From Magnetospirillum aberrantis SpK (lineage in GTDB: Bacteria; Pseudomonadota; Alphaproteobacteria; Rhodospirillales; Magnetospirillaceae), in NCBI RefSeq assembly GCF_011022235.1, contig NZ_JAAIYP010000037.1, forward strand, positions 186,001 through 250,000: a stretch of 64,000 bases of DNA, in the 5' to 3' direction. The notes under the pieces are model-generated. The model had not been told where the DNA came from and did not search any database. It saw nothing but the letters and a program-made list of their open reading frames with translations. This document shows, in pieces, positions 30,209-47,935 of this stretch (within the stretch, counting starts at the first letter, position 1; each line of letters opens with the position of its first letter). Both the position numbers and the translations under genes were made by a program.

Positions 30209-31621
30209 TCAGCACACGCGCACGTTCTTGAACTGCCACGGGTCGTCGTGGTCCAGATCCTCGGGGAACAACTGGCCGCGGCCGGCAAGTGGCGTCCAAT
30301 CGGTGTAGGCGCCGACCACCGGCCCCAGATAGGGGGTGGCGATCTCCAGGATGCGCTGGAAGTCCACGTCCTCGGGTTCGACCATGCCGCGCTGGGGGTT
30401 TTCCAGCGCCCACACCATGCCGCCCAGCACCGAGGCGGTGACCTGAAGGCTGGTGGCGGTGTTGTGCGGCGCGAGATCGCGGGCCTCGTCGATGGACAAT
30501 TGCGAACCGAACCAATAGGCGCCCTTGTCGTGTCCGGCCAGCAACACGCCCAATTCGTCGATGCCGTCCACGATCTCGCGGCCCATCAGGCGGATTTCGG
30601 GCTGTATTTCCCAATTCTTGCCGGCCAGTTCGTGCAGCGAGGTCACCGCGTCGTCGCACGGGTGATAGGCGTAATGCACGGTCGGGCGATACCGCACGTC
30701 GTCGCCATCGCGCACCGTGTAGAAATCGGCGGTCGAGATGGATTCCGAATGGGTGATGAGGAAGCCGTGGAAGTTCCCTTCACGGGGGGTCCAGGTGCGG
30801 ACGCGGGTGCTGGCGCCGGGACGCATCAGATAGATGGCGGCGTCGCAGCCGAAATCGTGGCGCTGGGCGTCGTCGGGCCAATGGCGTTCGTGGGTGCCCC
30901 AGCCCAATTCGGCCGGCTGGCAACCTTCACCGACGAAGCCGTCGATGGACCAGGTGTTGACGAATTCGCCGACCTTTTTCGGAACGTTGGCCACCTGGGT
31001 GTCGCGTTCGGCCACATGTATGGTCTTGACGCCCAAGCGTTCGGCCAGTTCCGCCCATTCCTCGCGGGTTTCCGGCTCGTCCACGTCCAGGCCGGAATCG
31101 CGGGCGATGTCCAACAAGCCCTGTTTGATGAAATGGCTGACCAATCCGGGATTGGCGCCATGGGTCAGCACCGCCGTCGGCTTGCGGGGGCCACCCTTGG
31201 CCCTGAGCTTGAGCGCCTGTTCGCGCAAGGCGTAATTGGAGCGCAGGGACGGCGACAGCGACGGGTCGGTATAGCCGCCGGCCCACGGTTCGATGCAGGT
31301 GTCGAGGTAAAGCGCCCCGCGTTCCCAGCACAATTCGATCAGCGCCAGCGAGGAAACATCCACCGAGACGTTCAACAGGAAGTCGCCGTCGCCCAGCAGG
31401 TGGGTCAGGTTCTGACGGTAATTGTCGGGCGTCAGCGGGTTGATGATGAAGCGGATGCCGTATTTCTCGGCCACGTCGCGGCCCCGCTCGTCGGCGGTGA
31501 TGATGGTGATCCGCGACGGATCCATGTCGAAATGACGCAGGATCAAAGGCAGGCTGCCCTGACCGATGCTGCCGAAGCCGATGATGACCAGCTGGCCGGC
31601 AAAGGTGGCGTGCTTGCTCAT
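30209..31621 (-). CDS. hss: Homospermidine synthase
   Basis: This 470-residue NAD-dependent enzyme makes sym-homospermidine from two putrescines, or from putrescine and spermidine, and is common in alphaproteobacteria. The Rossmann motif LVIIGFGSIGQGSLPLIL is at the N-terminus; LTHGANPGLVSHFIKQGLLD and DIARDSGLDVDEPETREEWA follow, with HESSIS-type LITHSESISTADFY and VHYAYHPCDD in the second half. Length fits the family. GAGGAG lies just before the ATG. It is downstream of agmatinase, which makes putrescine, but is separated by a 569-bp leader with its own promoter candidate. Confidence 0.93.
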   Translation of the reverse strand: MSKHATFAGQLVIIGFGSIGQGSLPLILRHFDMDPSRITIITADERGRDVAEKYGIRFIINPLTPDNYRQNLTHLLGDGDFLLNVSVDVSSLALIELCWERGALYLDTCIEPWAGGYTDPSLSPSLRSNYALREQALKLRAKGGPRKPTAVLTHGANPGLVSHFIKQGLLDIARDSGLDVDEPETREEWAELAERLGVKTIHVAERDTQVANVPKKVGEFVNTWSIDGFVGEGCQPAELGWGTHERHWPDDAQRHDFGCDAAIYLMRPGASTRVRTWTPREGNFHGFLITHSESISTADFYTVRDGDDVRYRPTVHYAYHPCDDAVTSLHELAGKNWEIQPEIRLMGREIVDGIDELGVLLAGHDKGAYWFGSQLSIDEARDLAPHNTATSLQVTASVLGGMVWALENPQRGMVEPEDVDFQRILEIATPYLGPVVGAYTDWTPLAGRGQLFPEDLDHDDPWQFKNVRVC

Positions 31622-31757
31622 TTCCTGAAACTCCTCTTCAACGATTCTGACCTCTCGGCCTGTTGTTTGCGCGATGGGGATATGGTGGGCCGCGGCCCGT
31701 TGTCTTCAAAAGCATCTTTCCACCGATGCGGATTCGCACCGATGACGGATGAAAGGC

Positions 31758-31784
31758 TTATGGTTTGAAACGCTTGTGGCGCAT
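31758..31784 (-). CDS. Candidate leader mini-ORF 2 (MRHKRFKP)
   Basis: Eight codons encode MRHKRFKP followed by TAA. AGGAGG (31798-31793) is 8 bp before the ATG, a near-ideal ribosome site. The peptide is strongly basic. It lies in the leader about 135 nt upstream of hss. It is supported only by its ribosome site and position. Confidence 0.4.
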   Translation of the reverse strand: MRHKRFKP

Positions 31785-31862
31785 GGCCGGAACCTCCTCG
31801 CGGCGGCGAGACGACGGGGCGCGTCCTCCGGGACATCGGTTCCCAGGAACGCGGCTCGACGG

Positions 31863-31911
31863 GACGACAGCGGGGGCGGGACGCGAAAAGGCGCGTTCCC
31901 CGACTGTCGTC
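31863..31911 (-). promoter_or_regulatory. Strong hairpin at the end of leader mini-ORF 1
   Basis: GACGACAG (31863-31870) pairs with CTGTCGTC (31904-31911), and CGGGG (31871-31875) with CCCCG (31898-31902), giving a 13-bp stem with a one-base bulge. The stop codon of mini-ORF 1 (31912-31910) overlaps the foot of the stem, so a ribosome at the end of that ORF would open or mask it. Confidence 0.6.
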
Positions 31912-31966
31912 AGATACTGGAAATATTGATGAGGATCGGGTTATTCCCGTGGGTCGTAACGACCAT
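31910..31966 (-). CDS. Candidate leader mini-ORF 1 (18 residues)
   Basis: Eighteen codons from ATG 31966 encode MVVTTHGNNPILINISSI, ending at TGA. GGGAGG lies 5 bp before the start, stronger than at many genes in this window. The stop codon coincides with the foot of the long hairpin. The layout is that of a leader peptide; translation and function are unproven. Confidence 0.45.
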   Translation of the reverse strand: MVVTTHGNNPILINISSI

Positions 31967-32130
31967 GTCCACCTCCCTTAAGGGGCTGCCGGCCCACCTG
32001 ACCGACTCTCCACCGAAAAGGACGCGTCCGTCGTTGCTTGACCCCCTGGCCGGAAAATCCTGGCCACCCACTGGCTAAACGGCGAATCGCCGCAAGGGCC
32101 ATAGGCACGTGCGTTATGCGTCTGACAAGG

Positions 32131-32159
32131 TATATACCCGCTGTCCTCGTGGGGATCAA
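32131..32159 (-). promoter_or_regulatory. Sigma-70-type promoter for hss leader
   Basis: On the minus strand TTGATC (32159-32154) is separated by exactly 17 bp from TATATA (32136-32131). It lies just after the agmatinase stop and predicts a transcript start near 32124. This would let hss be transcribed independently of the upstream speB gene. Confidence 0.55.
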
Positions 32160-32190: not shown

Positions 32191-33093
32191 CTACCGGGAA
32201 TGGGGGCGGGGCAGGTGCGACAGATAGGCCCAGGCGACCGACGCCGCGGCCAGGGCGGTGGTTTCGGCGTGGTCGAAAGGCGGTGCCACCTCGACCACGT
32301 CCATGCCGCGCCAGTCCATTCCGTCCAGCCGGTTCAAGATGCCCATGGCCTGCCAACTGGCCAGTCCCCCCACCTCGGGCGTGCCGGTGCCGGGGGCGAA
32401 GGCGGGGTCCAGGGCGTCGATGTCGAACGACAGATAGGCAGGGCATCCGCCCACCACGGCGCGAATGCGTTCGGCCACCGCCGCCGGGTTGGACAGGTGC
32501 ACCTGTTCCGCCGTGACGACGGTGACGCCCTTGGCCGGTGCCCATTCGGCCACGGCGTTTTGCACCGGGCTGCGGATGCCGATCTGGATCATGCGGGTGG
32601 GATCGACCAGTCCTTCCTCGATCACATGCCACATCACCGAACCATGGGCCAGCACCTGTCCGAAATTGTCGGGCCAGGTGTCCACATGCGCGTCGAAATG
32701 CACCAGGGCCAGCGGTTCGCCCACCTTTTTCCGCAAGGCCCGCAACAGCGGCAAGGTGACGGTGTGGTCGCCGCCCAGCGTCACCAGATGGGAAAACGCT
32801 GTAGCCTGACGCTCGATCAGCGCCAGCGAGGCGGGGATGTCGCCCAAGGCCACGGCGAAGTCGCCCAGATCGGCGATTCCCATGGCCGAAGGGTCGCGCC
32901 AGTTGGCCGGGTTCTCGCCGTCCACCAGCATGCGGCTGGCGGCGCGGATGGCGTTGGGGGCCAGCCGGGCGCCGGGGCGGTTGGTGGTGCCCAGGTCGAA
33001 CGGAATTCCCGCGACCACCACGGGGGCGTCGGCGTCGCGGTTGGTGGTGCCCAGGAAAGTCGGGGGCAGTGCGAAAGTGGGCGTGGCGGCCAT
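32191..33093 (-). CDS. speB: Agmatinase/ureohydrolase
   Basis: This 300-residue binuclear-manganese ureohydrolase has the family motifs in order: TLGGDHTVTLPLL, ALVHFDAHVDTW (DAHxD) and LSFDIDALDPAFAPGTGTPE (DxDxxDP). GIPFDLGTTNRPGARLAPNA is typical of agmatinase-like enzymes. It would release urea and putrescine from agmatine, supplying the homospermidine synthase encoded downstream. Related guanidino-acid ureohydrolases share these motifs, so the exact substrate is inferred from that neighbour. It follows the SAF-type protein gene by 27 bp. Confidence 0.87.
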   Translation of the reverse strand: MAATPTFALPPTFLGTTNRDADAPVVVAGIPFDLGTTNRPGARLAPNAIRAASRMLVDGENPANWRDPSAMGIADLGDFAVALGDIPASLALIERQATAFSHLVTLGGDHTVTLPLLRALRKKVGEPLALVHFDAHVDTWPDNFGQVLAHGSVMWHVIEEGLVDPTRMIQIGIRSPVQNAVAEWAPAKGVTVVTAEQVHLSNPAAVAERIRAVVGGCPAYLSFDIDALDPAFAPGTGTPEVGGLASWQAMGILNRLDGMDWRGMDVVEVAPPFDHAETTALAAASVAWAYLSHLPRPHSR

Positions 33094-47783: not shown

Positions 47784-47858
47784 TGGAGCGGGCGAAGGGA
47801 TTCGAACCCTCGACCCCAACCTTGGCAAGGTTGTGCTCTACCCCTGAGCTACGCCCGC
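47784..47858 (-). tRNA. tRNA-Gly(GCC)
   Basis: On the minus strand the acceptor GCGGGCG pairs with CGCCCGC, the D arm reads TAGCTCAGGGGTAGAGC, the anticodon arm AACCT-TGCCAAG-GTT-like with anticodon GCC, and the T arm GAGGGTTCGAATCCC-TT. CCA is encoded (47786-47784). It lies 2 bp from tRNA-Asn on the same strand, so the two are probably co-transcribed. Confidence 0.95.
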
Positions 47859-47860
47859 TC

Positions 47861-47935
47861 TGGCTCTGGAGGAGGGATTCGAACCCCCGACCAGCCGGTT
47901 AACAGCCGGCTGCTCTACCGCTGAGCTACTCCAGA
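47861..47935 (-). tRNA. tRNA-Asn(GTT)
   Basis: On the minus strand the acceptor TCTGGAG pairs with CTCCAGA, the anticodon arm is GCCGG-CTGTTAA-CCGGC with anticodon GTT, and the T arm GGGGGTTCGAATCCC-TC is intact. CCA is encoded. It is upstream of tRNA-Gly in the same orientation. Confidence 0.95.

Follow-up and report, generated by a model that had tools for sequence, protein, structure and literature searches.

A conserved leader with a small ORF and a stop-codon hairpin upstream of a putative homospermidine synthase gene in Magnetospirillum aberrantis

The window, which is the whole 64,000-nucleotide stretch of Magnetospirillum aberrantis SpK analyzed here, carries on its minus strand a LysR regulator, an oxidoreductase, an agmatinase, a leader, and hss, in that order (Table 1). 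The leader occupies the 569 nt between the agmatinase and hss. The name hss was given in an earlier, sequence-only reading of this DNA and rests on context, because an NCBIfam search of the encoded protein returned no family that names a homospermidine synthase. An hss match is found in 30 of 61 genomes, this one included. No SpeA-type arginine decarboxylase, the only type sought, was found over cut-off in the genome. At gathering score, the sole Rfam families in the window are those of two adjacent tRNA genes on the minus strand (47787-47858 and 47864-47935).

Table 1. Features of the leader and its flanking genes, in window coordinates
Feature	Position	Strand	Basis
Agmatinase, upstream neighbor of the leader	32191..33093	-	NCBIfam PRK02190.1 and TIGR01230 over cut-off
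Promoter-like TTGATC-N17-TATATA	32131..32159	-	Sequence; recurrence in 20 aligned leaders
5' domain, ar45-like: GACGCA..CGCACGTGCC..GCAACGACG..GCGTCCTTTT	32017..32122	-	Sub-threshold RF02347; kept in relatives
Second hairpin (GTCGGTC..GGGCCGGC) and SD region of ORF1	31967..32016	-	RNAalifold on 32 relatives; covariance-model match 31958-32122
ORF1, 18-codon upstream ORF: MVVTTHGNNPILINISSI, then stop	31910..31966	-	Sequence; counterparts in relatives
Hairpin opening inside the ORF1 stop	31863..31911	-	Stem search over unique leaders
Vestige of a deleted ODC2: SD hairpin, SD, first codons (ORF2, MRHKRFKP, then stop)	31758..31812	-	Match to the ODC2 start of G010
hss, saccharopine dehydrogenase-like domains	30209..31621	-	Pfam PF03435 and PF16653

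In the promoter-like site, TTGATC (32159-32154) and TATATA (32136-32131) are separated by a spacer of 17 nt. A consensus promoter scan reported no sigma-70 site here; the scan requires the sixth base of the -10 element to be T, and TATATA does not have it. A TTG and an AT-rich -10-like box directly before GACGCA recur in 20 aligned leaders, with GACGCA serving as the anchor of the alignment. Downstream, ORF1 is preceded by the SD AAGGGAGG and ends with TGA at 31912-31910. The arms of the hairpin at this stop, GACGACAGT (31911-31903) and GCTGTCGTC (31871-31863), form 9 pairs, one of them G-U, and the minimum free energy fold contains 8 + 5 pairs, followed by 5 more. The hss start at 31621 has its own SD and lies 288 nt past the ORF1 stop. 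The promoter-like site, ORF1, the stop-codon hairpin, and an 8-codon ORF had all been described in the sequence-only reading, and each can be read in the sequence where that reading placed it.

An exact-pattern scan of named genomes, made after the 20 leaders had been aligned, yielded 42 stretches from Magnetospirillum, Paramagnetospirillum, Phaeospirillum, Telmatospirillum, Defluviicoccus, Terasakiella, one Stygiobacter MAG, and MAGs named at higher ranks. Because the scan pattern included the start and SD of the upstream ORF, all 42 stretches have them by construction. The next gene is a COG0019-type decarboxylase (ODC2) in 23 stretches and hss itself in 10; the other 9 have neither, and six of these 9 contain less than 800 nt of downstream sequence (L116, L122, and L130 are longer). 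The solved structures closest to this decarboxylase by sequence are lysine/ornithine decarboxylases, and the ODC2 label implies no particular substrate. A covariance model (A2) was built from 32 of the 42 loci, with the window left out on purpose. This model omits L102 (too little sequence), L119 (locus begins too close), L114 (close to L113), L099, L110, L112, L130, and L132 (duplicate upstream ORF), and L129 and L138 (duplicate 5' domain). It matches the window leader at 31958-32122 on the minus strand with 99.6 bits (E = 6.8e-21). Folded as a whole, the leader gains little over its shuffles (z = -1.71). Because the motifs recur in 20 leaders and an independent model scores 99.6 bits, the leader is more than a chance arrangement. 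The interpretation given in the sequence-only reading is borne out in part: close to the promoter-like site lies a leader, conserved before polyamine genes, that carries a conserved small ORF and a hairpin at its stop codon.

Codon and hairpin counts were made on 37 unique sequences among 42 upstream ORFs, which come from all scan loci except L102, where sequence was insufficient (41 of 42), and from the window copy, L001. These ORFs span 8-31 codons and end in TGA (25), TAG (8), or TAA (4). Measured from the first base of the stop codon, a stem of 6 bp or longer begins no more than three bases away in 28 of the 37 leaders, as compared to 413 of 1096 background positions; put the other way, such a stem is missing from 9 of the leaders and present at 38% of background positions. 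The median stem score observed at the stops is reached by 35 of the 1096 background positions and, among the first stops of the two remaining frames, by 0 of 28 and 1 of 32. Both arms of the hairpin vary between species. An AGT codon falls within the last four codons in 29 of the 37 leaders, accounting for 33 of 148 such codons, whereas five genes of the window use it for 5 of their 2140 codons. Selection on the peptide appears weak: pN/pS is 0.61-1.12 for the ORF of the hss-type leader and 0.59-0.92 for parts of the ORF of the ODC1-type leader described below, and none of six shuffle tests for codon selection reached the 5% level. The stop hairpin and the terminal AGT, set against this weak peptide selection, suggest that where ORF1 ends matters more than what it encodes. 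We infer from these sequence patterns that ORF1 is a translated regulatory ORF; that it is translated at all is quite probable.

The covariance model has a second match in the same genome (E = 6.3e-6), at the leader of the canonical ODC gene (ODC1), which the genome retains. This leader combines the shared 5' core with a 41-codon ORF, MNVVARHMLSMDSHPLFSKGFRPRQAYTLLWRDVRSTFRRI followed by a stop. Fourteen core ORFs of this type, hand-chosen from 25 in relatives (11 diverged or uncertain ones were set aside), have 40-42 codons, stop at TGA (9), TAA (4), or TAG (1), and all carry CGA-AGT and end in W.D[VT]RS[TP]..R. before the stop codon. A stop-codon stem of at least 6 bp is present in 19 of 23 ORFs of 30-50 codons, some of which are doubtful members. 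The 41-residue peptide gave no Pfam match at E ≤ 10, and a search for leader-peptide families in Pfam, in which queries two and three were offset by several residues, found none.

The sequence-only reading had pointed to the alphaproteobacterial speF element as a parallel and had proposed an Rfam covariance search of the leader. In a relaxed search of 801 bases (E up to 5), ar45 (RF02347) matches the 5' domain with 26.3 bits (E = 0.0016), alongside two weaker matches, and speF (RF00518) has no match. Membership of the leader in either family was rejected, since the ar45 score falls short of the gathering score of 40 and speF is unmatched. No speF was found at gathering score among 20 related loci, and neither ar45 (at E ≤ 0.5) nor speF was recognized in any of 16 other core-pattern loci tested. 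Matches to ar45 occur in 4 of 142 genomes of the class; speF matches occur in the same four, three of them over its cut-off, and begin 7-8 nt past ar45, with a decarboxylase next, as read from translation. The window leader and these four loci share the core CGCACGTGCC..GCAACGACG, and their alignment shows that both the conserved core of ar45 and the closing strands before its U-run are present in the window leader, where the outer strands GACGC and GCGTC are able to close the domain. What resembles ar45 is the core together with an outer closing helix and the U-run behind it; in the four genomes, ar45 lies beside speF and upstream of a decarboxylase. The outer strands differ, being GACGC/GCGUC in the window leader and GCCC/GGGC in the four Rfam-recognized loci, and the ar45-like domain of the window leads into an ORF. 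The speF element, an orphan riboswitch candidate, sits between ar45 and ODC; a decarboxylase comes next in 23 of the 42 scan stretches, and hss in the window.

Genomes with the core pattern CGCACGTGCC..AACGACG number 63 of 385 in the class and 70 of 199 in the order, as compared to 6 class and 6 order genomes for a reversed-pattern control, counted by eye from tables. Sixty pattern loci, the best 30 of each of two lists and including ODC1 of this genome, were inspected for downstream genes; 54 of the 60 among the matches listed have ODC1, ODC2, or hss downstream, the exceptions being L167, L168, L169, L170, L174, and L187. For a leader type whose core pattern is present in 63 of 385 class genomes, mostly before polyamine genes, Rfam recognized 0 of 16 tested loci. 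The leader almost certainly belongs to the broad lineage of ODC leaders related to ar45 and speF. Judged by sequence, the resemblance to the alphaproteobacterial speF element seems to reflect shared descent of the 5' domain, through ar45, and not analogy alone, although the Rfam thresholds are not reached. As far as their accessible text goes, the mostly open-access papers searched report neither an ORF in the alphaproteobacterial speF/ar45 leader nor a leader for hss, and PMC7717549 calls the function unclear.

The segment between the 5' domain and ORF1 contains a candidate switch. An upstream strand, GCGTCCTTT, is able to pair with the SD of ORF1, and in the RNAalifold structure of 32 relatives, GCGUCCUUU is paired to AAGGGAGGU, which is that SD. 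The alternative partner of GCGUC is GACGC, a pairing that would close the 5' domain as does the outer helix of the ar45 model. The anti-SD and closing helices are mutually exclusive, and RNAalifold on the closest 32 relatives favors the former. Covariation is uninformative on the anti-SD helix because its pairs hardly vary in this closest set. In a duplex-energy test, the anti-SD strand was modestly more complementary to the SD than its shuffles were, with a mean z of -1.37 and 13 loci at p ≤ 0.05 among 49, several of them near-identical; the other 11 of 60 loci lack an SD-ATG and went unscored, and L187 and L194 were scored on the wrong upstream ATG. These predicted structures would allow a switch between anti-SD and closing helices in the leader.

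The Salmonella ORF orf34, called SpeFL in E. coli, offers a close comparison. Both systems place a short ORF before a gene of polyamine metabolism, a decarboxylase in Salmonella, with a hairpin at or just after the stop. The SpeFL/orf34 type is defined by a DUF2618 (PF10940) peptide with consecutive Arg codons, whereas ORF1 contains no arginine codon; ORF1 is too short for a Pfam scan, and its hairpin does lie at the stop. We know of no 5' domain that the Salmonella speF leader has in common with the window leader. In the accessible text on Salmonella orf34-speF, a "downstream of stop" hairpin opens when ribosomes pause on the stop codon, and translation of orf34 interferes with Rho-dependent termination (PMC6386406). 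This system is the nearest working counterpart of the window leader, by analogy and with no shared membership implied.

Our favored reading, held with moderate confidence, is that the window contains a polyamine leader from the ar45/speF lineage, which works through ribosome coupling and has come to drive hss. The GCGUC-CUUUU strand would pair with GACGC to close the 5' domain or else cover the SD of ORF1; the 5' domain would gate translation of ORF1, and transcription may stop at the U-run, as has been reported for SmrC45 of S. meliloti. A ribosome reaching or lingering at the end of ORF1, with its rare AGU and stop, would melt the stop-codon hairpin, and this melting would decide whether transcription or translation proceeds into hss. 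Ribosome-coupled control of hss is, on the sequence evidence, a reasonably likely outcome, and the signal read would, with about the same likelihood, be a polyamine or a polyamine precursor; the sequence-only reading had suggested putrescine or homospermidine.

The 5' domain might instead act alone as a metabolite riboswitch or a protein-binding element, with ORF1 as an expression platform whose SD is masked and whose peptide is irrelevant. This alternative, which we consider unlikely, draws on the breadth of the core pattern relative to its reversed control, on the weak peptide selection, and on 5' domains that precede decarboxylases without an upstream ORF (L059-L061, L153, L156, L157, L160, L162, and L163). 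Against our favored reading, six of seven distinct Rfam-like leaders (L058-L061, L153, L156, and L157) have no ATG at the place of ORF1, and L058 has an ATG there but no SD. The alternative of a 5' domain acting alone leaves the AGT codon and the stop-codon hairpin unexplained, however, and in the accessible part of PMC1273637 the A. tumefaciens leader bound none of the pathway metabolites assayed, a list on which homospermidine does not appear. Also against the favored reading, in L160, L162, L163, L197, and L198, the SD that elsewhere serves the upstream ORF seems to serve the decarboxylase, which would then carry an extra N-terminal stretch.

The second mini-ORF, ORF2 (31784-31758, minus strand, with AGGAGG at 31798-31793), had been proposed as a further part of the sensor. 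It was rejected as a leader peptide because it aligns with the start of ODC2 (MSHMRFRT) in G010, the genome with the closest Hss among those searched (84%): 39 of 47 nt at 31812-31766 are identical, as compared to at most 28 in 200 shuffles. ORF2 is instead what remains of the beginning of an ODC2 gene that has been deleted. Gene order in G010 is oxidoreductase, agmatinase, leader, ODC2, and hss, and the window aligns with it through the SD and first codons of ODC2 before diverging. A search with the G010 ODC2 protein found no close homologue in the M. aberrantis genome; its two matches are 37% (ODC1) and 31% identical. Across ten relatives tested for the ORF2 match, L035 and L040 also clearly exceed their shuffles (32 versus at most 28 and at most 26), L038 barely does (27 versus 26), and L032, L033, L034, L036, L041, and L056 do not, with MSHMRFR- or MTHIR-like starts readable in L032, L034, and L056. 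A second ODC2 stub, MNVIRYRTRRAA followed by a stop, is present in L105; in L136, whose record title gives the same isolate, the ODC2 gene is intact and starts MNITRYRARIHL. The L105 stub beside that of the window suggests that the leader was probably retained after decarboxylase loss more than once.

The loss of ODC2, together with the separate SD of hss 288 nt past the ORF1 stop, could also mean that the leader is a relic that once regulated ODC2 and that hss is merely transcribed through it here. We regard this as rather improbable, since the core motifs are intact relative to G010, the stem at the stop comprises 9 pairs, one being G-U, in L001 versus 8 pairs, two being G-U, in G010 (L125), and the leader runs straight into hss in other lineages too (10 of the 42 stretches). 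Under ribosome-coupled control, the same distance, SD, and missing ODC2 make transcription (Rho or mRNA stability) more likely than direct SD masking as the level at which hss is controlled. The window also holds a regulatory RNA retained after the loss of its original gene. That the 5' domain is mainly a trans-acting small RNA, its position before ODC or hss being incidental, is very improbable given the polyamine genes behind 54 of the 60 pattern loci among the matches listed and conservation that extends through the SD, ORF1, and the hairpin, even though the accessible parts of the sources describe Bartonella ar45 as expressed independently of speF and S. meliloti ar45 as co-immunoprecipitating with Hfq (PMC7717549), and S. 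meliloti SmrC45 as a 181-nt transcript with an assigned Rho-independent end (PMC2780559).

A broader, tentative proposal follows the same lines. The speF/ar45 leader in much of Alphaproteobacteria may be, instead of an ordinary riboswitch, a ribosome-sensing leader in which the 5' domain gates a short ORF and the polyamine state is read at an AGU or CGA-AGU and a hairpin-bearing stop, the module moving between ODC1, ODC2, and hss and outliving a lost gene. If true, this would explain why no assayed pathway metabolite bound the RNA alone. The small ORF and its stop hairpin offer a concrete candidate mechanism for a leader that has been an orphan for twenty years.

The leader also precedes genes of another kind. 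In L116, L122, and L130, and in the short L105 and L108, it lies before a small ORF with an M[EDT][ND]W..L...R.L.QAF..LDRA-like sequence (Paramagnetospirillum, to which the first three copies belong, and relatives), and neither ODC2 nor hss comes next, which counts against the favored reading. Behind this small ORF, L116 and L122 have a second ORF that by eye resembles a low-molecular-weight phosphatase, and contig NZ_LWQT01000098.1 of P. marisnigri carries two near-identical copies of the leader and small ORF (L122 and L130).
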